Source of the DNA: a virus
IMG/VR virus record: IMGVR_UViG_3300007725_000013
Coordinates: 1 to 33,060 of that record
DNA: 33,060 bases
Strand: one strand, 5' to 3'
Below, piece after piece: positions 7,134-23,191 of the stretch. The notes below the pieces were generated by a model. The model did not search any database. It was not told where the DNA came from and worked only from the letters and a program-made list of their open reading frames with translations. Positions within the stretch are counted from its first letter, which is position 1; every line of letters begins with the position of its first letter. A program made the position numbers and the translations under genes.

Positions 7134-8276
7134 TTATTCTGAAAGAATATCGCAGATTTTCTGAGCTAGGTTTTGTGCTGCTATTACGTCCATTCCGCGA
7201 GTAGTTTCAGCTGCTGTTCCGATACGAATACCACTTGTTTCTACAAAGGAACGAGGATCATTAGGGACACCGTTTTTGTTAACTGTTATACCATGTTCTT
7301 CAAGTTTATCTGCAGCTGCGCGACCAGAGATATTCTTTTTACTTAGATCCATTAAAATGATATGAGAATCTGTTCCGCCAGTTTGTACTGGGAATCCGTT
7401 TTCTTCAAAGACTTCACACATTGCTTTTGCGTTTGCAACTACATTTTTAGCGTACTCTTTAAAGGAAGGTTCAGATGCTTCAAGGAAACACTGCGCTTTA
7501 GCCGCAATGATATGCATCAAAGGTCCGCCTTGAGTGCCGGGGAAAATAGCGCTGTTCAGCTTGGCAGTATAATCCGGGTTATTCCACAGGATGATTCCAC
7601 CACGTGGTCCACGAAGAGTCTTATGCGTAGTAGAAGTTACAACGTCAGCGTATTGCATAGGATTAGGGTAAGCACCACCTGCAACTAGACCTGCATAGTG
7701 TGCCATATCAACAAGCAAGTACGCACCAACTGAATCGGCAATACTTCTGAACTTAGCCCAATTAATTTCACGAGGATACGCACTTGCACCTGCAACAATA
7801 ATCTTAGGCTTAATATCTTCAGCCATTTCGCGAATTTCTACATAATCAAGGTAACCATGCCTATCAACACCATACGAATAAGACATATAGTTTTTACCAG
7901 AGATGTTCACCTTTGCGCCATGTGACAAATGGCCGCCACTTGCTAAGTCCATACCTAGGATACGGTCACCTGGTTTAATCAAAGCTTGGTATACCGCCGT
8001 ATTAGCATTCGCACCACAGTGAGGCTGTACGTTAGCAAAGTTAGCACCGTATAGTTCACAAAGCGTATCAATAGCCAGTTTTTCAATTTCATCCATGTGT
8101 TCACAGCCGTTGTAATAGCGCTTGCCGGGATAACCTTCTGCATACTTGTTAGTAAACACAGAGCCTGCAAGTTCCATAACTGCATCACTTGCAAAGTTTT
8201 CACTTGCAATAAGTTCGATCGTTTCTTGTTGACGTAATGTTTCTTTTTCTAAAATATCTTTAATTATTTCGTACAT
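7134..8276 (-). CDS. glyA: Serine hydroxymethyltransferase
   Basis: 380 aa. A PLP enzyme that converts serine and tetrahydrofolate to glycine and methylene-tetrahydrofolate. Visible family motifs: [11 protein letters not shown] (20-30), [15 protein letters not shown] (43-57), [10 protein letters not shown] (83-92), [13 protein letters not shown] (189-201, with the PLP-contacting Asp190 and His193), and [12 protein letters not shown] (216-227), in which K219 is the Schiff-base lysine. The enzyme is about 35 residues shorter than E. coli GlyA (417) and ends soon after [13 protein letters not shown], so the last C-terminal helices are missing. It is the last gene of folA-thyA-glyA, starting 9 bases after thyA with a strong AAGGAAGG site. 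The product supplies methylene-THF for the adjacent thymidylate synthase. All core catalytic motifs are intact, so activity is likely. Confidence 0.96.
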
Positions 8277-8285
8277 TTTCCTTCC

Positions 8286-9146
8286 TTAAACCGCCATTGG
8301 TGCTTTAATTGAATCCATAGGATTATATCCTTCGAGAATGTAATCAGATGGACGTGTTAATAGTAATTCGGCTAGATTGCTAAATTTTGGCATTTTTAAC
8401 TTCGGCTCAATCTTAGGGCTCCTTTTTAGTTGTTCTTCTACTTGATCGAAGTGATTTTGATAGATGTGACAATCCCCGCCAGTCCAAATAAATTCTCCTA
8501 CTTCTAACTCGCAGATTTGTGCCAACATATGTGTAAGCAAACTGTAACTTGCTATATTAAAGGGTACACCTAAAAACATGTCAGCACTTCGTTGATACAT
8601 TTGGCAACTAAGTTTGCCGTTAATAACTTTAAACTGACTAAGTGTATGACAGGGTGGAAGTGCCATATCTTCTAGTTGATTAGGATTCCATGCGCTTAGA
8701 ATAATACGACGACTATCTGGTTCTGTAGTTAGCTGACGAATAATATAGCGAATCTGATCAAAACCTTCGCCATTGAAATCACGCCATTGACTTCCGTATA
8801 CAGGTCCTAGTTCTTTATATAAATCATCATTACGATAACCTAGTGCTACACCTTGTGCATTAGCGTTAGCAGTCCAAATCGTTTTCTTGTCTACAAGTTC
8901 TTCACGTGACTTTTCAAATGTAGTTTCAGCAAGTCTACGCTCGTCTGTACTACCTTCAAGGAACCATAATAATTCTCCTACAACAGCGCGCCAAGCAAGT
9001 TTCTTTGTGGTAACTGCCGGGAAGCCTTCTTGTAGGTTAAAGCGCATTTGATAGCCAAAAACTGTTTGGGTGCCCACCCCTGTTCTATCGTTAACATGTT
9101 CGCCATTTTTGCGAATATATTTAAGCGCGTCAATATACTGTCTCAA
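8286..9146 (-). CDS. thyA: Thymidylate synthase
   Basis: 286 aa, the length of T4 td. It methylates dUMP to dTMP using methylene-THF, releasing dihydrofolate. Motifs: DRTGVGT (20-26), FPAVTTKKLAWRAVVGELLW (42-61), YGSQWRDF (117-124), DSRRIILSAWNP (144-155) and LPPCHTLSQF, with the nucleophile at C166. The start is a TTG that overlaps the folA stop (TTGA). It has AGGAGA at the right distance, and the N-terminus MRQYIDALKYI aligns with the usual start of the family, so no upstream ATG is needed. It lies between folA, which reduces the dihydrofolate it makes, and glyA, which regenerates its cofactor. Confidence 0.97.
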   Translation of the reverse strand: MRQYIDALKYIRKNGEHVNDRTGVGTQTVFGYQMRFNLQEGFPAVTTKKLAWRAVVGELLWFLEGSTDERRLAETTFEKSREELVDKKTIWTANANAQGVALGYRNDDLYKELGPVYGSQWRDFNGEGFDQIRYIIRQLTTEPDSRRIILSAWNPNQLEDMALPPCHTLSQFKVINGKLSCQMYQRSADMFLGVPFNIASYSLLTHMLAQICELEVGEFIWTGGDCHIYQNHFDQVEEQLKRSPKIEPKLKMPKFSNLAELLLTRPSDYILEGYNPMDSIKAPMAV

Positions 9147-9637
9147 ATCTTTCTCCTGTAAACTCTGTACTCGTTATTGGTTTCGCCCGTTGTACTTTTC
9201 CATCCTAAGGTTTGTTCAAATTCTTCAAATGGAAAATCTAAAAATGTGTCGCAATCATAATCTCCATCGATGACAGTTAGTTGAAGTTCTTGAATCAAAT
9301 GACTGCATTCTTTAATAATAGTAGGACCACCAATTATCCATACATCTCTTTCGTCGTTTTCGTCAAGACGTTGAACAAGAGGCGCATAATCGCCACCTAT
9401 GCAATCATCTGCATCTGGGTAGTAACTTAAAGGTTTAGAAGTAACGACGACATTTTTGCGGTTTTTCAACGGTGCAGGAAAGCATGGATCATCCCATGTC
9501 TTTGAACCCATAACAACAATGTGTCCGTCTGTTTGATTTTTGAAGTGACGTAAGTCTTCTTTATTAGCCGGCCATGGGAGTGTGCCGGATTTACCAACAC
9601 CACCCATGCAGTCAATGGCCATAATAGCTTTTATCAT
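9143..9637 (-). CDS. folA: Dihydrofolate reductase
   Basis: 164 aa, normal for bacterial and phage DHFR. It reduces dihydrofolate to tetrahydrofolate with NADPH. Motifs: MIKAIMAID at the start, GVGKSGTLPWP (13-23), the substrate-binding acidic residue in KEDLRHFK (D28), VVMGSKTWDD (41-50), VVTSKP, and the NADPH-binding DVWIIGGPTI (98-107). First gene of the thymidylate cassette; its TGA overlaps the TTG of thyA. An AGGAC ribosome site and an extended -10 promoter stand upstream. Confidence 0.96.
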   Translation of the reverse strand: MIKAIMAIDCMGGVGKSGTLPWPANKEDLRHFKNQTDGHIVVMGSKTWDDPCFPAPLKNRKNVVVTSKPLSYYPDADDCIGGDYAPLVQRLDENDERDVWIIGGPTIIKECSHLIQELQLTVIDGDYDCDTFLDFPFEEFEQTLGWKSTTGETNNEYRVYRRKI

Positions 9638-12091: not shown

Positions 12092-14107
12092 TTAATTTTC
12101 AACATCATATTGCATTTCAATCATTTGTTTATGCAATAACTGTTGTGCTAAACCATTCCTTAAACCATTTTTATTCTCAGGTAAATTTACGACATATATG
12201 TCTTTTGAATCATAAAAATCTATTTCTGGAATGCTATTATTGGTGTAAGTTTCAAACTCGCCATTAGAATTCATTTCTTGTACGACTTCAGTTTGACTTA
12301 CATCATTAACTGATAATGCGTCAGCTTCAGAATAACTTTCTTCAGTTATTGCTTGAACGATTTTTTCGTCTTCTTCAGCACTATTATTCTTATTATTTAT
12401 CTCAGTTATGCGTTTTTTAAGCATTCTCTTGGCGAATGTTTCGTGTCGGACACTTTCTTCACTGTCTATATATAGCCCGTTAAGATTATCTTCTATAGAT
12501 TCAACACCTCCAAAAACTGAATGTAAATCCTTTTGAGGATCGCCACCAGTTTCACTTGGATTTTGCGAAGATTCTTCAATTGTTACCATGAATACTGATC
12601 CATCAATTTCAGCAAGCATATTATATGAACCGTCCGCTTGCTGGCCTAAATCATTAGTAGATATATTATCGGGAATACCGTTATTTGGCAAATCGGATGC
12701 TGATGTAAAGGAAGTAGTCATTTCAGATGAATTAAAAGAACTCAGCGAACTAGAAGTTGATGAAATAGAAGTTGACTCTTCGATTGCACCTGTGCTATTA
12801 TCAGAAGTGCCGTCTAATGACAATTGTTCGCCTGAAATGCTTGAAACACCATCTACAGTATCTCTTCCAAGACCTGTTGGATCACCCGTACCGTTTGTAG
12901 TAGAATTTCCTAAAATACCCAGTTTACTCAGCGCCCCAATAACTTCTCTAGGCGACATTTTGTCTAATTCTAATGAATTTGCCTCCTCTAAAGCGTCTTG
13001 TTGAGGATCTTCCGCTACTATTTCATCAATTATAGCTACTTCTTCAAATGTAACTACTTCTTCGATAGTCACTGGTTCACTTGTTAGTTCAGCAACATTT
13101 TGCACACCGGTTGGGTCAACGAAAGTATTTTCGCTAGTTGTGACCTCTACATTTTCAACGAAAGTATTTTCGCTAAACGTTTCATTAGGTGTTCCATCGT
13201 TTATAGCGTCATTAACAATGGCTGTTTCGTCAATTACACCAGTATTAGAAATTCCAGTGCCGCCAGTAGTATCTACACCGCTATTATTGTCAGTGCTACT
13301 TGCTTCTTCTGTTATATTAGCAAGAGCATACGCTTCAGTGTAACCTGGGCATGTCCTGTCATACAAAGCGTCAGCCGTACACATCATATTCAGATATGCA
13401 TCCGCGTAACCCGGACAGTTCGTATCTGACAGAGGATCTGAAATACAAGCATCAACAGAATACAAAAGACTTAGTGAATATTCAGAAAGCTCAGGACCGT
13501 ACCAACCCTTCCAGAATCCGGCGTCATCGCCTTCTGCGAATACACTAACAGAACTTAGTTCATCTGCGAGATATGATGATTTAAACCATTCAGTTCCACT
13601 AAACCAAGTCCATGCGTCGATATGATAACTGTAATCATATGTATTGGTTTCTACTACTCGGTTATTATTATCGTAAAACTCTACAGTAATAATAAGTGGG
13701 TCTTGCCCACCCGCACCATTTGTGGATTCTCTGTTCGCATCTGCGTTTTTGAGTCGCCAAGAGTACCGATATCCTTCAACAGATATACCGGTGTTAGAAG
13801 CAAGAATTGACGCAATAGCAATGTTCTGTTCTAATGTTCCACCACCATAACCCCAACGAATAACACCAGACGCGTTAAAGGATGGAGACTCACCGCCCGT
13901 TGTGCCAGCCCAACAATCTGAAGAAACACATTGCGTCTTAGTGCCTGACCAATCGCTTGAGGAGTTACCGAGAATGTCACCCGTCTCTTCTACGACTGGC
14001 GCGGCAACAGTATCTTGCGTTAGTGCTATCGCCTGCGCTTGATTAAAGAAGAAGCAATAATAAAGCAGCGCTGCCCATACCCATGAACCAACCACTAAGT
14101 GTGTCAT
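12092..14107 (-). CDS. Large exported protein with CPGY repeats, unknown
   Basis: 671 aa. The N-terminus (MTHLVVGSWVWAALLYYCFF, then FNQAQA) looks like a signal peptide with cleavage after A26. Residues about 55-217 form a domain with an early Cys pair (KTQCVSSDCW), many aromatics and beta-strand character (VIRWGYGGGTLEQNIAIASI). Next are two copies of a 20-residue Cys repeat, C-x2-D-x-L-x-D-x2-CPGY-x2-AY (221-260). From about 265 the protein is acidic, Ser/Thr/Glu-rich and low-complexity, with a 13-residue duplication around SENTFV. The ATG has AGAGG upstream and overlaps the preceding gene by 65 bases. It is probably secreted or virion-exposed. I do not recognise a function. Confidence 0.8.
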   Translation of the reverse strand: MTHLVVGSWVWAALLYYCFFFNQAQAIALTQDTVAAPVVEETGDILGNSSSDWSGTKTQCVSSDCWAGTTGGESPSFNASGVIRWGYGGGTLEQNIAIASILASNTGISVEGYRYSWRLKNADANRESTNGAGGQDPLIITVEFYDNNNRVVETNTYDYSYHIDAWTWFSGTEWFKSSYLADELSSVSVFAEGDDAGFWKGWYGPELSEYSLSLLYSVDACISDPLSDTNCPGYADAYLNMMCTADALYDRTCPGYTEAYALANITEEASSTDNNSGVDTTGGTGISNTGVIDETAIVNDAINDGTPNETFSENTFVENVEVTTSENTFVDPTGVQNVAELTSEPVTIEEVVTFEEVAIIDEIVAEDPQQDALEEANSLELDKMSPREVIGALSKLGILGNSTTNGTGDPTGLGRDTVDGVSSISGEQLSLDGTSDNSTGAIEESTSISSTSSSLSSFNSSEMTTSFTSASDLPNNGIPDNISTNDLGQQADGSYNMLAEIDGSVFMVTIEESSQNPSETGGDPQKDLHSVFGGVESIEDNLNGLYIDSEESVRHETFAKRMLKKRITEINNKNNSAEEDEKIVQAITEESYSEADALSVNDVSQTEVVQEMNSNGEFETYTNNSIPEIDFYDSKDIYVVNLPENKNGLRNGLAQQLLHKQMIEMQYDVEN
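13116..13175. repeat. Two 21-bp direct copies inside the exported protein gene
   Basis: Bases 13116-13136 and 13155-13175 are identical, spaced 39 bases (13 codons), and encode the repeated SENTFV peptide. Each copy holds a short inverted repeat CGAAA/TTTCG. Most simply a small in-frame duplication. Confidence 0.8.
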
Positions 14108-15107
14108 TACGTTTTTCCTCTTCTGCTTTGGCTATAGGTGATTCTTCAGGATTTTCTTCCCATAATTTAGATGCTTCTGCACCAATAGCGCCCTCATAAG
14201 GGCAAGGTGTGCCAGCCATTTTCATAGCATTAAAAACTCTTTCGTCTTGACATAACGTTGATACGGCAGCAACTTTCATACCCATATCATATAATGTTTT
14301 AGACAGTTTAAGTCTTTCACAATTCATATCTCTATAAGTAGCACCACCTGCAATACCTAAGATTTGGCTCTGTACTGCGCCACTTACACCAACTGCACAA
14401 ATGTCACTATTGCTAGTGTTGATGCTAGGAGCAATCGCTGACGGTGGAGGCGACTCAATTCTTTGTGTTACCGTACTTTCGTTTCTGTTGATGTTGGTGT
14501 TAGTATTATCTGATGTAGAATTATTAACATTAGTGTTAGTATTCGTGTTAACATTATTGTTATTGCTGTTAATGTTAGAATTATTTGTATTCGAACTGTT
14601 AACTGTCTGATTTATAACACTGTTTTCGTTAACGGTAGTATTATTAGTATTAACGTTATTGTTTGTATTATCACTTGTGATAGTACTCGTGTTATTATTA
14701 GTGTTTACATTCGTATTATTACTAGTCGAAGTATTAACATTCGTGTTAGTGTTTACGTTCGTATTATCGCTTGTAATAGTACTTGTATTCACATTAGTGT
14801 TATTTGTGCCGCCGCTTAATATGTTATTATTAGTATTAACATTTGTACTTGTTGATGTATTTGTGTTAGTATTAATATTTGTATTATTCGTCGTACTGTC
14901 TAATGTCGTCGTATTAACGTTCGTATTAGTGTTTGTTGCCGTGCTTGTACTAGTACTCATATTAGTATTAGTAGATGTGTTCGTGTTATTCGTAGTACTA
15001 TTCACTGTTGTCGTATTAGTGTTAGTATTATTAGTTTCTATTACTTCGGCATTGCCTTGTATAGAAAACCCCAATAACATCACTATTGGTATAGTTCTAA
15101 ACTTCAT
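14043..15107 (-). CDS. Exported Asn/Thr-rich protein with C-terminal membrane anchor, unknown
   Basis: 354 aa from the ATG at 15107, which has AGGAGGG 6 bases upstream; an in-frame TTG six codons earlier is rejected because the ribosome site would lie inside the gene. Residues 1-20 (MKFRTIPIVMLLGFSIQGNA) are a good signal peptide. Residues about 25-212 are almost only Asn, Thr, Ser and Val in degenerate N-T-N-T units. The C-terminal domain (about 230-325) is compact, with four cysteines (237, 263, 286, 302), including CERLKLSKTLYDMGMKVAAV and MAGTPCPYEGAIGAEASKLW. The end SGWFMGMGSAALLLLLL is a membrane segment. It has its own late promoter box. Likely anchored in the host envelope or carried by the virion; function unknown. 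Confidence 0.8.
   Translation of the reverse strand: MKFRTIPIVMLLGFSIQGNAEVIETNNTNTNTTTVNSTTNNTNTSTNTNMSTSTSTATNTNTNVNTTTLDSTTNNTNINTNTNTSTSTNVNTNNNILSGGTNNTNVNTSTITSDNTNVNTNTNVNTSTSNNTNVNTNNNTSTITSDNTNNNVNTNNTTVNENSVINQTVNSSNTNNSNINSNNNNVNTNTNTNVNNSTSDNTNTNINRNESTVTQRIESPPPSAIAPSINTSNSDICAVGVSGAVQSQILGIAGGATYRDMNCERLKLSKTLYDMGMKVAAVSTLCQDERVFNAMKMAGTPCPYEGAIGAEASKLWEENPEESPIAKAEEEKRNDTLSGWFMGMGSAALLLLLL
14472..15035. repeat. Degenerate short tandem repeats encoding the Asn/Thr-rich region
   Basis: About 560 bases made of repeating AAT/AAC and ACN codons, with larger units such as the one encoding TSDNTN recurring several times at uneven spacing. Units are imperfect and in frame, so this is a coding low-complexity region. 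Slippage or recombination should make its length variable. Confidence 0.8.
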
Positions 15108-15170
15108 TTTTGCCCTCCTAACCAAATGGCCAAGTTCATCCCACTTGAATTATTACTCAATATCCAAATG

Positions 15171-15284: not shown

Positions 15285-17087
15285 TTATTTTTGTGTGTTA
15301 GGTATTTTTACCAATTTCTTATATTCTGGGAAGTAGCAATATTCAAGGTCTGATTGGTCAAGAGTCCAGAACGCATCTTCCAATGTTTCAACTAGGGGTT
15401 CACCACCAAGGTTGAATGACGTATTGAAAAGAAGTGGAACACCAGTTTCTTTCTTAAATTCTGAAATAAGTTCATAATAAACTTTATTTTCTTCTTTAGA
15501 AACTGTTTGAATACGACAAGTTCCATCTTCATGGATTACTGAAGGAACCTTTTCAGCAACACCTTCTTGGCAATTTACTGCGTACATCATATGCGGTGTT
15601 TTGTCCATTCCTCGCAAATCAAACCATTCTTTAGCATCTTCTTCAAGAACTGAAGCTGCAAATGGACGGAAATACTCACGGCGTTTAACCATATTGACAT
15701 AATCTTTACCATCTTTGAACGTTGGATCAAATAGAATTGAACGGTTGCCTAATGCGCGCGGACCATTTTCACAACGACCTTGATACATTGTAACGATATT
15801 TTTAGATCTTAGAAGTTTAATAATATCGGCATATTCTACGTTATCAGTGATTTCAGCATTTTTATATTTTTCGTTTGCTTTAACGAAATCGTCGTTTGTG
15901 TAATCATATTTTGGTCCTAGGTACAATGAACCTTGACGCTGGCGAGGAGTTGTGTCTTTACTTGTTTCGTAGTAATAAAGAAGTGCCGCACCTATAGCAG
16001 TACCACCATCATTAGAAATAGGTTCAACATACAATTCAATACCACGTTTATTCAATTCAGTCAAATACCAGTAGTTAGCTACACAGTTTAGACCATATCC
16101 GCCAGAAAGAACAACTTTCTTTTTACCGGTCATTTCACATGCAGTTAAAATGTAGTTTAGCATTGCTTGTTGAGTTTCTTGTTGAATCCAATAAGCGGCA
16201 TCACGACGATTTTCCATTAATGTCAAGTCTTGACCCGGTTGTGGAAGAGTATCGAAATAATCATAAATTCCGGCGTTAAAGATTGCACTATTTGGATAAG
16301 TGGGAACGATAGTATTACGATTAGTCAACATAAACTTCGAATCAGTATCCATAAGTGATGGAAGCTTATTACTTGGCTTTCCGTATGGAAATAGACCCAT
16401 TGTTTTACCAGCTTCAATGGCACTAAATCCGCAATATTCAGTAACCGCTTCGTATGATTTAGTAATACCTGCATGATCTGAAACTAGGTTCATAAAAGGT
16501 TTTTCTTGATCAATCAAACCACCGGGTGCATCTGGTTGAAGACCAGTTGGAATTGGATGCCTTGAACCCATATGCTTAAACACGGCAGTAATACCGTCCT
16601 TGTATGAACAATCATAGATCGATTCAACTTCCCAAACATCTTCGCCACTATTTAAAAAGAAGCAAGAGCCAGCACCATCTGCCACGACAGCTACTGCATC
16701 TTCAAAACCTGAATGATAAAATGCTAGTGCAGCATGCGCAGTATGATGGCGTTTGCTAAAATCGTGTACTTGATAGTGATTTCTCAGATCTGTCTTTCTA
16801 TCAATAAGACCGAGTTTACGAGCGTAACCCGTGTACATGTCGTCGCCAGTGTATTCTATTTTAGCAGCCATACCATCAATAGATTGTGTATGAACAACGA
16901 CCATAGCATCAACTTTATTAGTATAATCTAATACCTTTTTCATTGCAGCTAATGGCGAACCATCATATTTTTGACGACTTAGACGTTCTTCTTCGATAGC
17001 GAAAACAATTTCGCCATCCTTTAGAAGACATACACCTGAGTTATGTCCTCTAGAAATACCTAATATATATCCTGTTTTATTTTGCAT
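15285..17087 (-). CDS. NodU/TobZ-type O-carbamoyltransferase
   Basis: 600 aa, normal for the family. These enzymes make carbamoyl-adenylate from carbamoyl phosphate and ATP and pass the carbamoyl group to a hydroxyl, usually on a sugar or antibiotic. N-terminal Kae1-like domain: GYILGISRGHNSGVCLLKDG (6-25), EEERLSRQK (32-40), the metal-binding HHTAH (114-118) and VVADGAG (134-140), then VVLSGGYGLNCVANYW. C-terminal YrdC-like domain: YQGRCENGPRALGNRSILFD and VPLLFNTSFNLGGEPLVET. The ATG has GAAGGA upstream. It follows a GT9-like glycosyltransferase by 39 bases, so the likely acceptor is a glycan made by that enzyme, on DNA, virion protein or host envelope. Carbamoyltransferases also occur in other marine T4-like phages. 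The acceptor is unknown. Confidence 0.93.
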   Translation of the reverse strand: MQNKTGYILGISRGHNSGVCLLKDGEIVFAIEEERLSRQKYDGSPLAAMKKVLDYTNKVDAMVVVHTQSIDGMAAKIEYTGDDMYTGYARKLGLIDRKTDLRNHYQVHDFSKRHHTAHAALAFYHSGFEDAVAVVADGAGSCFFLNSGEDVWEVESIYDCSYKDGITAVFKHMGSRHPIPTGLQPDAPGGLIDQEKPFMNLVSDHAGITKSYEAVTEYCGFSAIEAGKTMGLFPYGKPSNKLPSLMDTDSKFMLTNRNTIVPTYPNSAIFNAGIYDYFDTLPQPGQDLTLMENRRDAAYWIQQETQQAMLNYILTACEMTGKKKVVLSGGYGLNCVANYWYLTELNKRGIELYVEPISNDGGTAIGAALLYYYETSKDTTPRQRQGSLYLGPKYDYTNDDFVKANEKYKNAEITDNVEYADIIKLLRSKNIVTMYQGRCENGPRALGNRSILFDPTFKDGKDYVNMVKRREYFRPFAASVLEEDAKEWFDLRGMDKTPHMMYAVNCQEGVAEKVPSVIHEDGTCRIQTVSKEENKVYYELISEFKKETGVPLLFNTSFNLGGEPLVETLEDAFWTLDQSDLEYCYFPEYKKLVKIPNTQK

Positions 17088-17126: not shown

Positions 17127-18287
17127 TTATTTAACTTTTTTATCCGGAACTTTAGCACCTACCGTTTGTTGTGCCTTTTTATCTTTTTTCGCAACAGTTG
17201 CTTTAATTGCGTTTGTCAATTTACTTTCGCTCACTGGTGGTGCAGATACTGTGGTTGTCTGCGTTGGTTCTGGACCGCATCCGCAACCATCTAAACTACA
17301 TGTACCAGCTTGTGCAGCTTTTTCTTGCTCTTCTTTAGCCCTTTTAGCAAAATAACCTGTATTTTTACCTAGTTTCTTATATATACCATTCACGATATCC
17401 GCGATTGTTTGTTGTTCAAGATACATAAGTGTTTCGTTATTTCTTTCAATTGCCATATCCCAACCTACACGAATTGGCGAATATTTTCGTTTACCTTTGC
17501 CGTTGTCAATAATAATAAAATCTTTATTGCTTGGGTATGAAATATTCTCAGGGAATGTACTACCTATAACAACTGTAGCTGGTTTACCAAGTGCATTCGC
17601 CATGTGTTGACCAACTGAGTCACATCCTAAGAAGTAATCAGCGTTTTGAATAACACCCATCCATTGCAGCAACGAAAGATTCTGGGGAACGATAGCTGGA
17701 ATTGGTTCCTTTACGGGTGGCATAAATTCAGACATTAAAATAACTGCGTATTCTCTAGATAGAGCTTTAACGATTGTGATAATATCTGCTAGTTCAAAAG
17801 ATCTTCCAGATTCGTCTAGAACTAATTCACCTTCCATTCTAGTACCGCGCCCAAACGGTTGGAATACTATCACTCTATCACGACCAGTTTGTTTGCGAAT
17901 GTCGTTGATTAAATTAAAACCTTTAATTTGATCTGCTTTTCCAACTGTAAATGCATATTCTTTAGATTCCGGAATTTCTTCTGGTGGTGTATCATAATTG
18001 ATAAGCATATCAAATGCCTGAATTAGATTACATTTCTGATTAAAATACGCATTTAAACGATAAGGTTCTGGAGAAATAATCTCGCGATCTTTAATGATTT
18101 CAAAAATATTTTTGTGTTCTGGCGAATACACGTTTGATGCAATTTCAGGACTTGCAAGATACAATTCTTGCCAACCTTCTGCAATGATTGGTGCTGTTGG
18201 GTCTATATTTTTGATATGATGCTCTAATGCTGGTAGAGCACAAAGAATGCGGCCGGCGCCGCCATTGAGTACAAAAGCTTTTTTCAT
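17127..18287 (-). CDS. GT9-like (heptosyltransferase-type) glycosyltransferase with Cys-rich tail
   Basis: 386 aa from the ATG at 18287; the ATG two codons upstream is too close to the AAGGA site. The N-terminal nucleotide-fold start KKAFVLNGGAGRILCALPAL resembles the glycine-rich loop of ADP-heptose:LPS heptosyltransferases. The C-terminal half has RVIVFQPFGRGTRMEG, then NADYFLGCDSVGQHMANALG and KPATVVIGSTFPENISYP, the donor-binding region of the GT9 family. After the enzyme core there is an unusual tail: CSLDGCGCGPEP (330-341), then a Ser/Thr/Lys-rich stretch ending in KKVK. It probably moves a sugar onto a glycan that the next gene carbamoylates. A late promoter box lies upstream, so this pair may be made late, although the carbamoyltransferase may also have its own promoter. 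Confidence 0.82.
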   Translation of the reverse strand: MKKAFVLNGGAGRILCALPALEHHIKNIDPTAPIIAEGWQELYLASPEIASNVYSPEHKNIFEIIKDREIISPEPYRLNAYFNQKCNLIQAFDMLINYDTPPEEIPESKEYAFTVGKADQIKGFNLINDIRKQTGRDRVIVFQPFGRGTRMEGELVLDESGRSFELADIITIVKALSREYAVILMSEFMPPVKEPIPAIVPQNLSLLQWMGVIQNADYFLGCDSVGQHMANALGKPATVVIGSTFPENISYPSNKDFIIIDNGKGKRKYSPIRVGWDMAIERNNETLMYLEQQTIADIVNGIYKKLGKNTGYFAKRAKEEQEKAAQAGTCSLDGCGCGPEPTQTTTVSAPPVSESKLTNAIKATVAKKDKKAQQTVGAKVPDKKVK

Positions 18288-18317
18288 GTTCATCCTTCAG
18301 GTTTGTTTATATGAAAT

Positions 18318-18390: not shown

Positions 18391-18410
18391 ATATATATAT
18401 ATATATATAT
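18391..18410. repeat. (AT)10 dinucleotide repeat
   Basis: Twenty bases of perfect AT repeat between the last partner gene stop and the terminator hairpin. Non-coding; likely prone to length change. Confidence 0.9.
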
Positions 18411-18422
18411 GTTTTTTTGTTA

Positions 18423-18863
18423 TTATGAATTTTCAACCACTGCAATCATAGCAGCTTTAGCATCTTCACTAATATTTAATGCATTGATAGCATCGAGTGC
18501 GTCTTGTTTAGGGTCAGTTGAAGGGAATACTCTTTGAACCAATTTATATGGTACATTGCCAAGAGAAGGATCGTATTCAGCACTTAGACCTTCTGCTAAA
18601 TATACATTATCATCTTCGCCATCTGGCATTACATTAGTATCTCTATCCCAGAACCATGCCATAACTTCCTTGTTAGTATCATTAACGTGGATAGTTTTAA
18701 ACGTATAAACGTTTCTGTCGTCATTCTGAAATTCAGAGTCATCATCAGAAATCTTGATCCACTCACCAGTGCGCTTTTCGATTTTAACAAAAAGATAGCT
18801 AGGAAGACTAACAGTTTTGCTAGTCTCTCCTAATATTGTGTTAAATGTTATTTGTGCGTGCAT
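18423..18863 (-). CDS. Fibre partner protein 3 (small acidic), unknown
   Basis: 146 aa from the ATG at 18863, with AAGGA six bases upstream; a TTG two codons earlier would be too close to that site. Acidic. N-terminal beta pattern (AQITFNTILGETSKTVSLPS), a middle part with FQNDDRNVYTFKTIHVND, and a C-terminal helical segment (DALDAINALNISEDAKAAMI) that resembles the C-terminus of partner 1 (SAANIDSTTKQALLDVIAAI). It begins 9 bases after the stop of a Cys-rich fibre gene, like the other two partners. The most diverged of the three. It may be a fibre assembly chaperone or a capping subunit; this is inferred from gene order only. Confidence 0.7.
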   Translation of the reverse strand: MHAQITFNTILGETSKTVSLPSYLFVKIEKRTGEWIKISDDDSEFQNDDRNVYTFKTIHVNDTNKEVMAWFWDRDTNVMPDGEDDNVYLAEGLSAEYDPSLGNVPYKLVQRVFPSTDPKQDALDAINALNISEDAKAAMIAVVENS

Positions 18864-18872
18864 AATCAATCC

Positions 18873-19964
18873 TTATTTAAAAGTTAGCAATACTTCGCCA
18901 GAATTACCAAATGCGCCGTGACAAGGATAACAGTTGGCATTATGCCAAGCACCCCAGCCACCTCGGCCAGGTCCTCTGTCTGACGTATAAGCGCAACAAC
19001 CATTCACACCGCTAAGATCACATACCATTCCGCCGTAGCATCTAGATACAATATGATTGCAATCAATGTGTGCAGTAGAAACAGCATGTATATAACAACA
19101 GTTGCAACTGTTACCAGACCAAGGTCCTTTTCTTGCTCTAACTTGCGATTGCAAATAGATATCATTACTTGTTGTTATTTGACCGCCGTCTGTTCGTGCC
19201 CATGCTTCTGAGAAGCCGATCTGAGTAGATTCACTGACGTAAGTGTTTAAACTAACACAGTATTGAGTACCGATCGTGTTATTAAATCCAATGTAACAAG
19301 AATCATATGCCGGTGCGCCACATGATAGTATCGTTGTTGCTGAGTCGCCGGAACAAACAAATGAGTTACACCCAGAACATGCGTAATTTCCATTATAGAT
19401 GCCAGTAGCACATGCACCACCAGAACACATGCAATATATTTCGCCTTCAGAAACAGCCATTTGAACAAACGAATAAGCACCATCACCACCGTTAGAACCG
19501 AATGTACAACATTGGAGCTGACTCGCCCCTGGCGCACCAGACCCCCAAACTTGGAATTGAGCTTGTGTTACACCAGCTGGCACTGTCCAATTACAAGAAG
19601 CACCAGCATCACCACCACAATAGTATGTTGTTCCGTCATTTACTCTAATAGTTGTTGTAGCACCATCCAAAAATGCATCGGTTGATACTAAATTGATTGG
19701 TAATGTTGACGGGATTACTGAAGACGAATATGCTGTGTTTTCATGGTTCGTATATTGAGTACCGGGCTTTAGTGTTGCGGCAATTTCATTTACTGTTAGT
19801 ACTGCAGCAGCGATTGGACTAAAGTCAGGTTGAGCAAAGGTTAAATTACCATCAGCATCAACTGCTAGGAAGTCACCCTCAACAGGTGCCGGAGCAGTGC
19901 TTGGTGGTAGTGATAACACTGGTCCACCAGATTTTTGAATTTGATCTACTACTATTTTAGACAT
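18873..19964 (-). CDS. Cysteine-rich tail fibre/adhesin 3
   Basis: 363 aa. The N-terminus MSKIVVDQIQKSGGP, then GDFLAVDADGNLTFAQPDFS, is shared with two downstream-numbered paralogs and is probably the attachment part. From about residue 113 it is very rich in Gly and holds 23 cysteines. It includes NWTVPAGVTQAQFQVWGSGA, a beta-strand motif common in phage receptor-binding tips, and CSGCNSFVCSGDS. It ends in a Gly/Arg-rich DRGPGRGGWGAW and a final hydrophobic strand, EVLLTFK. It has its own late promoter box and an AGGAA site. Compared with its paralogs it has lost part of the central Cys core (SGDSATTILSCGAP replaces GSNNTCIMACGG). It probably binds a host receptor; metal or disulfide use of the cysteines is unknown. 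Confidence 0.82.
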   Translation of the reverse strand: MSKIVVDQIQKSGGPVLSLPPSTAPAPVEGDFLAVDADGNLTFAQPDFSPIAAAVLTVNEIAATLKPGTQYTNHENTAYSSSVIPSTLPINLVSTDAFLDGATTTIRVNDGTTYYCGGDAGASCNWTVPAGVTQAQFQVWGSGAPGASQLQCCTFGSNGGDGAYSFVQMAVSEGEIYCMCSGGACATGIYNGNYACSGCNSFVCSGDSATTILSCGAPAYDSCYIGFNNTIGTQYCVSLNTYVSESTQIGFSEAWARTDGGQITTSNDIYLQSQVRARKGPWSGNSCNCCYIHAVSTAHIDCNHIVSRCYGGMVCDLSGVNGCCAYTSDRGPGRGGWGAWHNANCYPCHGAFGNSGEVLLTFK

Positions 19965-19988
19965 ATTTTAAATTCCTATATTTTTTAA

Positions 19989-19996
19989 TATTTATA
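19989..19996 (-). promoter_or_regulatory. T4-type late promoter box before Cys-rich fibre 3
   Basis: TATAAATA on the - strand, 24 bases before the ATG, overlapping the stop codon of partner gene 2. Confidence 0.75.
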
Positions 19997-20372
19997 CTGT
20001 TGGATCCACAGGATCTTCGTCAACAGCTGGTTCAGGAATGCCATCGTAGTTAGTTTCAAAAATTGCGTTTCCATCTTCATCAATTCTCGTACTGAACGAA
20101 TAGGCTTCAGCGATTTCGTCAAACTGTGTAGAAAATTCTTCAATAAATTCAATATGTTTCATATATAAGTAAAATGATAAGATTTTAAAATTTCCGCACG
20201 CAATTGAACTATAATGATACATGTCCTTTGGGTCGTTTTCGAAATCGTAGCTTCTTAATGCACTAAACAATATTTGTTTTGTGTTCCAGTCTAATCTTAA
20301 ATGAAGAGTAGGAGGAAGATCAAAAGAAAAACTCTTTTGATCCGCGTATTGATAATTAATTTCTGTTAACAT
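19992..20372 (-). CDS. Fibre partner protein 2 (small acidic), unknown
   Basis: 126 aa, acidic. Paralogous to partner 1: DLPPTLHLRLDWN and NDPKDMYHYSSIACG here against DLPEKLYLRHDWN and DDPANQHHYSTITTA there. It ends in an acidic proline tail (PAVDEDPVDPTV) and lacks the C-terminal helix of the other two. It starts 12 bases after the stop of fibre 2, with AAGGA 9 bases before the ATG, so it is probably translated from the same message as that fibre. A dedicated chaperone or tip subunit is the simplest explanation of the strict fibre-partner order. Confidence 0.75.
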   Translation of the reverse strand: MLTEINYQYADQKSFSFDLPPTLHLRLDWNTKQILFSALRSYDFENDPKDMYHYSSIACGNFKILSFYLYMKHIEFIEEFSTQFDEIAEAYSFSTRIDEDGNAIFETNYDGIPEPAVDEDPVDPTV

Positions 20373-20384
20373 CTCTTTAATTCC

Positions 20385-21524
20385 TTACTTGTATTTCACA
20401 CAGATCATACCACCGCGACCGCGATCAGCATAACATGGTGCACTACTATAGTTACATTGCATATTAAAACCAGAACCACCCATCCCAGGATAATTATAGT
20501 TCGCAGAAGTCCAGCAGCAACAACCACCCAGATATGCTAGCCAAGCACCGTATTCATAGAGTTTGTGATCTATAGTTACTACCGGTCCGGTTTTTTGACA
20601 AACATACCCAGTGTTACAAGTTGTACATTTTCGCATAGAACCAACGTATGATGGGACTTTAGCTTCTGAGACTATTTCATTAGAACTTGTAGTACACCCA
20701 AAACCACAAATACCGTTAAATCTAGGTACTGCGTTGGCCAACGTACTAGTACATAAGTATGCTGTGCAGTACATACCACCTTCTAGCCACGAACAGTCTT
20801 GTGATTGATAAGAACCAGGGAAGTATGTTCTCAAACCGAAACCACATCCAATTGTGTGTCCAGTTGTTCCACCACATGCCATGATACATGTATTGTTTGA
20901 ACCACATACATAAGAATTACAACCGTGACAAGCCTGATAACTATAACATGGTGCAGCATCAGCGTATGCACATCCTGCGCATAGTGTATAAGTATCACCT
21001 TCGGTAACTTTCATCCAAACGTAATTATATTCACCATTAGAACCCATCATACCTGTTCTACAACAAGCAGAAACGTTACATCCTGTACCATTACCACCGG
21101 CTCCCCAAATTTGGAATTGAGCTTGAGTCACACCTGCAGGTACAGTCCAAATGCACGAACAACCCGTGTGGCAATACCCATTAGAGCCACCATCGCCGAC
21201 CATTATATCTCCAACTGGATCTAAAAGAGTAGCAGACAAGGCCGGAACTTGTATGCCGTACGAGTTTGCTTGAATAGCTGATGGCGGAGTGGCAGAAACA
21301 GATGCAATCGCAGCATCAACACCATCCGCGATATCTTGAATATCAGATAAAGGCTGAACGAGTGCCGCGGCGACTCTTGCTTCAACGTTTGGGTTTTCAA
21401 AAGTCAATTGCCCGTTTGCGTCAACCGCAAGATAATCACCTTCTGCTGGTGTATTACCTACTGGCGGTAGGTTTAAAGTCGGACCGCCAGATTTTTGAAT
21501 TTGATCTACTACTATCTTAGACAT
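20385..21524 (-). CDS. Cysteine-rich tail fibre/adhesin 2
   Basis: 379 aa. Shares MSKIVVDQIQKSGGP and GDYLAVDANGQLTFENP with its paralogs. The receptor-type part begins near residue 125 with IWTVPAGVTQAQFQIWGAGG and contains 29 cysteines. Among them is the core HGCNSYVCGSNNTCIMACGG, identical in fibre 1, plus clusters such as GGCCCW. It ends RGRGGMICVKYK, close to the end of fibre 1 (GKVCVNYK). Conserved ends with variable middle segments (for example FGLRTYFPGSYQSQDCSWLE here) suggest exchange of specificity loops. Own late promoter box and AGGAGA ribosome site; followed by partner 2. Confidence 0.83.
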   Translation of the reverse strand: MSKIVVDQIQKSGGPTLNLPPVGNTPAEGDYLAVDANGQLTFENPNVEARVAAALVQPLSDIQDIADGVDAAIASVSATPPSAIQANSYGIQVPALSATLLDPVGDIMVGDGGSNGYCHTGCSCIWTVPAGVTQAQFQIWGAGGNGTGCNVSACCRTGMMGSNGEYNYVWMKVTEGDTYTLCAGCAYADAAPCYSYQACHGCNSYVCGSNNTCIMACGGTTGHTIGCGFGLRTYFPGSYQSQDCSWLEGGMYCTAYLCTSTLANAVPRFNGICGFGCTTSSNEIVSEAKVPSYVGSMRKCTTCNTGYVCQKTGPVVTIDHKLYEYGAWLAYLGGCCCWTSANYNYPGMGGSGFNMQCNYSSAPCYADRGRGGMICVKYK

Positions 21525-21546
21525 AATTTCTCCTAATTTCTATTAT

Positions 21547-21554
21547 TATTTATA
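21547..21554 (-). promoter_or_regulatory. T4-type late promoter box before Cys-rich fibre 2
   Basis: TATAAATA on the - strand, 22 bases before the ATG, directly after the stop of partner gene 1. Confidence 0.75.
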
Positions 21555-22016
21555 TTAGCTTTGCTGTGCCTTAATGGCTGCAATTACGTCCAATAGTGCT
21601 TGTTTAGTTGTAGAATCTATATTAGCTGCAGAAATTTCTGATTCAACATTATCTAAAGAATTATCAGCAGGTGCTTCAGACAGTGGACCAGCTTTTAAGG
21701 TAAATGTAATATTACCGTCTTCGCCCATCTCATATTCTGCATTATATACCGCTGCAATTTCTTCAATTGTTTCATCTTCAGCATCCATTTCGTTAATGTA
21801 TTTTTCCCAAACCCAACCTGCCTTGAGAATATCATCTGCTGTGGTGATTGTGCTGTAATGATGCTGATTAGCTGGGTCATCTTGATAAGCGAACTTATCA
21901 AATGACGCTTTGTTGATTGAATAATTGTTCCAATCGTGTCTTAGATACAACTTTTCAGGAAGATCATAATCAATTGTTTTTTCAACACCTTTATAAGTAT
22001 AAGTAATTTCCATCAT
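21555..22016 (-). CDS. Fibre partner protein 1 (small acidic), unknown
   Basis: 153 aa, acidic. N-terminal beta pattern ITYTYKGVEKTIDYDLPEKL, then YLRHDWNNYS, then DDPANQHHYSTITT, a segment DEDGN/EMGEDGNITFTLKAGP-type strand pair near 110-125, and a C-terminal helix TTKQALLDVIAAIKAQQS. Similar to partner 2 over its first 120 residues and to partner 3 at the C-terminus. Two adjacent ATG codons (22016 and 22013) both fit the AAAGGA site. It starts 8 bases after the stop of fibre 1. No known family recognised; gene order suggests a fibre chaperone or accessory subunit. Confidence 0.75.
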   Translation of the reverse strand: MMEITYTYKGVEKTIDYDLPEKLYLRHDWNNYSINKASFDKFAYQDDPANQHHYSTITTADDILKAGWVWEKYINEMDAEDETIEEIAAVYNAEYEMGEDGNITFTLKAGPLSEAPADNSLDNVESEISAANIDSTTKQALLDVIAAIKAQQS

Positions 22017-22024
22017 AATTTCCT

Positions 22025-23191
22025 TTATTTGTAGTTAACACAAACTTTACCAACGCGACCATGTGAACCATAATCTACACAACAACAACCCGTATTCACG
22101 GTACCCCAGCCACCCAGACCGAAGCATCCAGAATTGGTACATAGACATCCGCCACCACAATAGGCCCAACCTATAGTATTTCTGCAGAAAGAATGTGTAG
22201 AGTTTGGAAGTGGAGCTTGGTCATGGTGAATAGCGCAGTTCATACAACCACAGCTGCGAATTGTTCCAACCGCTGATGGAATTTTTGCACATTTAATAAA
22301 ATCATAACTGGAAGTGCTACAACCAAATCCGCTGAGACCGTTATTACGTATTGATTCTTCACCATGAACGTCATTACATATACCCATTGACATTGTACAA
22401 TAATTGCCCACACTACCAGACGATGTAGCAAAAAATTGACCAAACCTATTAGCTTTTGGATAGTTATAACCGTATTGAACTTCGCAATAACCGTATCCGC
22501 CACATGCCATTATACATGTATTATTGGAACCACAAACGTATGAATTACAACCGTGACAAGAATATGCACCGTTACATCCGCCACCTTGGCACGCTCCGCC
22601 ACCACATAGAGTAAATACATCACCCTCAGTAACGTTCATCCAAACGTAATTATATTCGCCGTTTGCGCCCATTGAACCAAAGCTACAGCAACCGTTCCTT
22701 CCACCACCACCATTACCGCCAGCTCCCCAAATTTGGAATTGGGCTTCAGTTACACCGGCAGGAACTGTCCAGCTGGTGCTGCCGCCACTGCTACCACAAT
22801 AGGTACCTGTTGCGCACCCCGCTTCAGCAGTACCAATAGATCCGTTCGATTGCATTAAATCTGTGCTGGGCGGAAGATAAAAACGCAATTCACTGCCGAA
22901 GGTGCCATTTAGCGTAATTTTATCATGACCAAATCTATTACTAAAATCGTCTGTATTAATATCTCCTAAAGCCAGCACTGCTGCATCTACTTGTGCTAAT
23001 GCAGTATCAATCTGTCCTTGAACACCTGCAACAGCATCGTCAATTGGACTAAAGTCGGGTTGAGCAAAGGTTAATTGGCCGTCGGGAGCGACTGCTAAGA
23101 AGTCGCCCTCAACTGGTACGTTACCTACTGGAGGCAACGATAACGTTGGCCCTCCAGATTTTTCTATTTGATCTACTACTATTTTAGACAT
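22025..23191 (-). CDS. Cysteine-rich tail fibre/adhesin 1
   Basis: 388 aa. N-terminus MSKIVVDQIEKSGGP, then GDFLAVAPDGQLTFAQPDFS, as in fibre 3. Receptor-type region from about residue 120: SWTVPAGVTEAQFQIWGAGG, a Gly-rich loop (NGGGGRNGCC), the core HGCNSYVCGSNNTCIMACGG shared exactly with fibre 2, and CGGGCLCTNSGC near the end; 29 cysteines in all. The end GRVGKVCVNYK matches fibre 2. Unlike the other two it has no late box of its own: it starts 15 bases after the 909-aa structural gene and is probably read with it. Likely a receptor-binding fibre or fibre tip. Confidence 0.83.
   Translation of the reverse strand: MSKIVVDQIEKSGGPTLSLPPVGNVPVEGDFLAVAPDGQLTFAQPDFSPIDDAVAGVQGQIDTALAQVDAAVLALGDINTDDFSNRFGHDKITLNGTFGSELRFYLPPSTDLMQSNGSIGTAEAGCATGTYCGSSGGSTSWTVPAGVTEAQFQIWGAGGNGGGGRNGCCSFGSMGANGEYNYVWMNVTEGDVFTLCGGGACQGGGCNGAYSCHGCNSYVCGSNNTCIMACGGYGYCEVQYGYNYPKANRFGQFFATSSGSVGNYCTMSMGICNDVHGEESIRNNGLSGFGCSTSSYDFIKCAKIPSAVGTIRSCGCMNCAIHHDQAPLPNSTHSFCRNTIGWAYCGGGCLCTNSGCFGLGGWGTVNTGCCCVDYGSHGRVGKVCVNYK

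Follow-up and report, generated by a model that had tools for sequence, protein, structure and literature searches.

Three cysteine-rich fibre genes, each followed by the gene of a putative dedicated chaperone, in a T4-type phage contig

The DNA analysed here, an IMG/VR record of 33,060 bases that is called the window in its whole length, comes from a marine T4-like phage; its genes include one for the T4-type major capsid protein Gp23 (PF07068, E 3.5e-104) and one with a contractile-tail sheath domain (PF17482). On its minus strand, from 23191 to 18423, three fibre genes alternate strictly with three small acidic genes. It is quite probable that these are three adhesin-chaperone cassettes, in which each partner is the dedicated assembly chaperone of its fibre. 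The association of fibres and partners is real and old. A fibre with a cognate chaperone encoded downstream is already known from Mu, Pam3, V22 and A5; what is new is the cysteine-rich head, which makes these fibres an unannotated but widespread version of the Pam3-type adhesin, as well as the partner that almost always accompanies it and the alternation of three fibres with three probably reduced partners, one to each.

Organisation of the locus

All six genes are open reading frames on the minus strand. Fibre A, a cysteine-rich tail-fibre adhesin of 388 residues (22025..23191), is followed by partner A (21555..22016), a small acidic protein of 153 residues that is proposed to be the dedicated chaperone of this fibre. 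Fibre B, with 379 residues (20385..21524), precedes partner B, with 126 residues (19992..20372), and fibre C, with 363 residues (18873..19964), precedes partner C, which has 146 residues (18423..18863) if translated from the ATG at 18863. This ATG stands behind AAGGA and is more likely the start than the TTG at 18869, and the gaps between fibre and partner genes thus are 8 (A), 12 (B) and 9 (C) bases. Each partner is encoded directly downstream of its fibre, as is typical of tail-fibre assembly chaperones. Apart from the refined start of partner C, this agrees with the sequence-only reading of the DNA, which had described gaps of 8-12 bases, this gene order, a shared fibre start, cysteine-rich fibres and acidic, mutually related partners; open reading frames, alignments and composition all bear this out.

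The window contains 13 copies of the late promoter box TATAAATA, where 3.9 are expected and none of 100 shuffles reaches 13. Eight of the copies are on the minus strand, and for seven of these a start codon follows at a distance of 23-46 bases. Among the seven are the boxes 23 bases before fibre B (21547..21554, minus strand) and 25 bases before fibre C (19989..19996, minus strand, overlapping the end of partner B), so that two of the three pairs have a late box of their own, as had been noticed before. Fibre A has no such box and would be transcribed by read-through from upstream. The cassettes are followed on the same strand by two syntenic neighbours, a glycosyltransferase family 9-like gene (17127..18293; PF01075, E 4.7e-5), known as T4-GC302 in cyanophages, and a carbamoyltransferase gene (T4-GC303; 15285..17087; PF16861, E 7e-57).

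The identical 3+3 order is found in IMGVR_UViG_3300026123_000009, a 99.9%-identical contig that differs from the window by 6 mismatches and 4 gap positions over 13,140 bases in all. Downstream of partner C there is a TA-repeat tract (18391-18412), at which the near-identical contig appears to differ by a small change in length. Elsewhere in the window, two adjacent Asn/Thr/Ser-rich proteins of 671 and about 354-360 residues are encoded at 12092-15125, which have no Pfam match and one of which shows NTNTNVNT-type low complexity and a signal-like N-terminus, and at 7134-9637 a serine hydroxymethyltransferase gene (PF00464) adjoins what by eye appear to be thymidylate synthase and dihydrofolate reductase genes.

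Cysteine-rich fibre heads

The three fibres align end to end (E 2e-69 and 2e-47 against fibre A), beginning with the common N-terminus MSKIVVDQI(Q/E)KSGGP, and belong by profile match to the uncharacterised families phrog_4205 and phrog_35878, with respective E values of 7e-18 and 9.5e-19 for fibre B, 1e-10 and 7e-12 for fibre C, and 3.5e-11 and 8e-6 for fibre A. Cysteines make up 7.5, 7.7 and 6.3% of fibres A, B and C, as opposed to no more than 3% in any of the 30 further genes listed, and all of them lie C-terminal of about residue 110-125. The heads, which comprise the C-terminal 253-269 residues, contain 23-29 cysteines each (9-11%) and 15.4-20.2% glycine; the medians of the heads of 173 distinct relatives are 11.3% cysteine and 18% glycine.

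A search of solved structures by sequence with the fibre and partner profiles gave nothing convincing. An AlphaFold2 model of fibre B, calculated with 52 relatives as input, reached a pLDDT of 70.5, with values below 50 in the distal loops 224-274, and matched the fibre Pam3 gp24 (Foldseek E 4.6e-5; Z 13.8, rmsd 2.8 Å over 177 residues). The next matches were a Bxb1 tail-tip chain and then the glycine-rich domain of ALK/LTK receptors, and unrelated folds scored Z 3.2 at most. From about residue 102 on, the fibres are thus predicted to form a TNF-like plus glycine-rich-type head, which in the fibre B model spans residues 102-379. The very high distal glycine content that goes with this fold in Pam3 (39%) is not found in the window fibres, and as cysteine takes its place in part, they are to be regarded as a variant that works like the Pam3 gp24 type and not as a member of it.

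As to the role of the cysteines, complete pairing within each chain finds no support, because even numbers would then be expected and just 57% of the 173 fibres have one. A rather doubtful idea is that the cysteines, by disulphides or bound metal, link the head into a counterpart of the polyglycine lattice, with the partner keeping the cysteine-rich head unlinked and covered in the reducing cell, and the head locking after lysis in seawater. If true, cysteine-linked heads would be a redox-set family of adhesins that is widespread in marine T4-like phages.

Probably reduced partners

The partners have isoelectric points of 4.20 (A), 4.17 (B) and 4.35 (C) and are related to each other with E values of 2e-18 (A-B), 9e-8 (A-C) and 0.002 (B-C). 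The AlphaFold2 model of partner A (pLDDT 82) consists of N-terminal beta strands and a short C-terminal helical hairpin; the C-terminal extension of partner C resembles that of A, and partner B has none. No solved structure, Pam3 gp25 included, matched this model, and Foldseek found nothing in PDB or BFVD. None of the window partners matched PF16778, the phage tail assembly chaperone domain, or any other family above the curated cut-off, the weak DUF7300 match of partner C (E 0.0012) being below it.

Relatives of the fibres are mostly accompanied by larger partners, and among 46 of these that were tested, phrog_9740 was matched by 40 and PF16778 by 20; their best match among solved structures, 2kz6, is weak (E 0.03) and covers the chaperone-like C-terminus. 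In profile comparisons of small and large partners, the probability was 2% with few sequences and 58% and 84% with deeper alignments, the last being an hhalign match of the window-type partners to the N-terminal part of the phrog_9740-type partners that is remote and has an E value of 8e-6 for that single comparison. We infer from these sequence comparisons that the window-type partners are reduced homologues of the large ones, and as they are devoid of the usual C-terminal trimerisation domain, it is the fibre-binding part that would have been kept.

Distribution of fibres and partners

A pattern scan of IMG/VR gave 312 relatives, the best 80 of which were retained, and cysteine-rich fibre relatives occur in at least 84 sequence-distinct phage loci, some of which are near-identical to each other. 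A recognised partner gene is present in 81 of the 84. The three loci counted without one are L139, which is truncated by the contig end, L138, in which a partner is present that was missed in counting, and L135/L136, which has a different small gene. With F for a fibre, p for a large partner and s for a window-type partner, 36 loci have the order FFFp and 34 FpF, and the rest are Fp, FFp, FFs, Fs, FpFFp and, in the window, FsFsFs. The arrangement in the window is therefore the extreme of a general association, and the check that had been proposed, a search for the fibre-partner order in other phage genomes, found a partner beside cysteine-rich fibres in nearly every locus. The surroundings are conserved as well, the order being a long fibre, the cysteine-rich fibres with their partner, the T4-GC302 glycosyltransferase-like gene and the T4-GC303 carbamoyltransferase gene.

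Relatives in the annotated phages P-SSM2, P-SSM5, S-SSM7, S-SSM6a and Sf-FS3 are called hypothetical proteins. With fibre B as the query, ten records of annotated phages were found, which are cyanophages and marine single-cell viruses; direct searches of annotated phages with fibre A and with the partner of locus L006 gave no match, a search of IMG/VR with a partner alignment returned only the near-identical contig, and no paper that joins cyanophage tail fibres and cysteine-rich was found in the literature that was searched. Cysteine-rich fibre clusters were also seen in four contigs of metagenome-assembled genomes labelled Actinomycetota, Neomarinimicrobiota and Rhodobacteraceae (L142, L143, L144 and L145; order F-p-F-F-p in L143 and L145), which are probably phage contigs mis-binned with hosts. 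In two loci (L043:7677-8773 and L135:7073-8175), the site expected for a second fibre is occupied by the gene of a different cysteine-rich protein of 232-238 residues and a subsequent gene for 124 residues, which in L135 matches phrog_2504; this is possibly another fibre-partner type.

Do the partners belong to individual fibres?

Window-type partners are also encoded in loci L006, L040, L041 and L133, and across the six contigs the ratio of window-type fibres to partners is 3:3, 3:3, 1:1, 1:1, 1:1 and 1:1, with the second 3:3 contig being the near-identical one and thus not independent. Fibre-head distances and partner distances are correlated in a test on only six pairs (A, B, C and those of L006, L040 and L041; Mantel r 0.67, reached by 8 of 720 permutations), and as three of the pairs share a genome, the correlation is more than a reflection of phage phylogeny. 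The suspicion that the pairing is a chance order is thus not borne out, given the partner in 81 of 84 loci, the one-to-one ratio of the window type and the co-divergence.

It would also be conceivable, though unlikely, that one chaperone function is spread over three redundant paralogues, so that any partner serves any fibre. Most relatives indeed have a single partner for two or three fibres, as in the orders FpF and FFFp, and the pairs of L006 and L133 are preceded by an extra fibre of another clade, so that a single partner follows two fibres; as the L006 record showed no large partner, this partner may serve both. Strict privacy of the partners is therefore not general, but the equal numbers of partners and window-type fibres in 6 of 6 contigs, as well as the divergence of partners along with their fibres, argue against redundancy. 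Alternatively, the partners could be permanent virion parts on the fibre tip, such as co-adhesins or caps, which we consider improbable. One partner is made per fibre, some fibre chaperones do stay bound, as Mu Tfa according to what is cited of it in PMC7289586, and the chaperone of phage A5 forms a fairly stable complex with its fibre, with such chaperones having been proposed as caps (PMC10579305). The nearest structural analogue, Pam3 gp25, however is absent from virions, despite its stable 3:3 complex with gp24 (PMC9608196). That the partners have nothing to do with fibre assembly and are, for instance, host take-over proteins placed there by operon order only would suit their lack of a family match above the curated cut-off but is highly improbable, considering their presence in nearly all loci, the co-divergence and the PF16778 domain of relatives at the same position.

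With partners as dedicated chaperones, each fibre would form a tail-fibre tip that is attached to the tail by the common N-terminal anchor, and this anchor may dock all three fibres at the same kind of site. A linker follows, and the cysteine-rich domain, with its predicted TNF-like/glycine-rich-type fold, would face the receptor. The small acidic protein, made right after its fibre, would bind the distal domain while the fibre folds and trimerises, and then is probably shed or acts as a transient cap only, judging from Pam3 gp25 and from Alteromonas phage V22 gp27, which is required for fibre function and not found in the mature complex (PMC7289586). As such a chaperone must fit its fibre, both genes would travel and diverge as one unit, and three units behind a shared anchor could provide three adhesins and three specificities in one phage.

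History of the three units

By its body, fibre C clusters with the L041 fibre (98/94), and partner C clusters with the L041 partner (90/85, with long branches), both apart from A, B, L006 and L040. The GC302 protein of L041 is 41% identical to that of the window, compared with 53% for L006 and L040. Unit C, fibre and partner together, is thus either older than the divergence of these phages or an import. All three window fibres have the N-terminal anchor in common, which L006, L040 and L041 lack and which is also present on other marine-phage fibres. Within the anchor, 29 informative sites join A with C against 13, and in the head, 159 join A with B against 99 (Fisher p 0.0003, with sites that are not fully independent), a mosaic that fits heads being plugged in with their partners behind a resident anchor. 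Tandem duplication of a two-gene unit with subsequent divergence had been suggested at first, which is supported only partly, as fibre C and partner C group with L041 and the anchor is shared by A, B and C. A recent duplication was rejected because the codons differ at between roughly a quarter and more than half of the identical anchor residues. The pairs are old or imported units behind a shared anchor and not the product of a simple recent triplication. In L133 (7413-7702), the partner is immediately followed by a truncated second copy of the fibre 3' end, which is nearly identical for some 150 bases before it diverges. This is likely the scar of a recombination between tandem fibre copies, or possibly a silent tip copy.

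Comparison with known systems

The analysis provides a likely function for a widespread unannotated gene family of marine phages, which has members in P-SSM2 and S-SSM7 and occurs in no fewer than 84 loci of distinct sequence, nearly all with a partner. Little is known of the proteins by which cyanophages and their relatives bind receptors, and the cysteine-rich fibres are candidates for this role. Three different pairs in one genome moreover are a natural experiment on fibre-chaperone specificity, with cognate and non-cognate combinations.

The sequence-only reading knew no named system with this pairing, which does not hold in this form, as a fibre with a downstream cognate chaperone is well known from Mu Tfa, Pam3 gp24-gp25 and V22 gp26-gp27. 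Among the closest is the fibre and chaperone of cyanophage Pam3 (PDB 7YPX; PMC9608196), with the same fibre fold and a small chaperone gene downstream. Pam3 gp25 binds the fibre by a variable N-terminal beta-sandwich and trimerises by conserved C-terminal helices (PMC9608196), whereas the window partners have no recognisable C-terminal chaperone domain; Pam3 also has a glycine-rich domain with 39% glycine (PMC9608196) in place of heads with 9-11% cysteine and 15-20% glycine, and one unit in place of three. V22 gp26-gp27 and A5 gp8-gp9 likewise are fibres with cognate chaperones that move together between phages (PMC7289586, PMC10579305), a transfer that is known for such pairs (PMC10579305), but their chaperones are of the DUF4376 type, the fibres are different, and there is a single pair. 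P-SSM2 (PSSM2_304-306) and S-SSM7 (SSSM7_114-118) share with the window the cysteine-rich fibre family, a partner and the subsequent GC302 and carbamoyltransferase genes; they differ in the orders F-p-F and FFFp and in larger partners of 225-267 residues, with PF16778 in that of S-SSM7, and all are annotated as hypothetical. A second F-p-F-p-F-p locus is L140 (IMGVR_UViG_3300020205_000624), in which Cys/Gly-rich fibres and small genes take turns, three of each, before GC302 and the carbamoyltransferase. Its small genes are of the PF16778 type in two of three cases (E 3.3e-5, just under the curated cut-off, and 2.1e-10), the middle one being assigned by position and not by profile, and its fibres have 232-247 residues and no MSKIVVDQ anchor, but the threefold alternation of fibres and small genes is the same as in the window.
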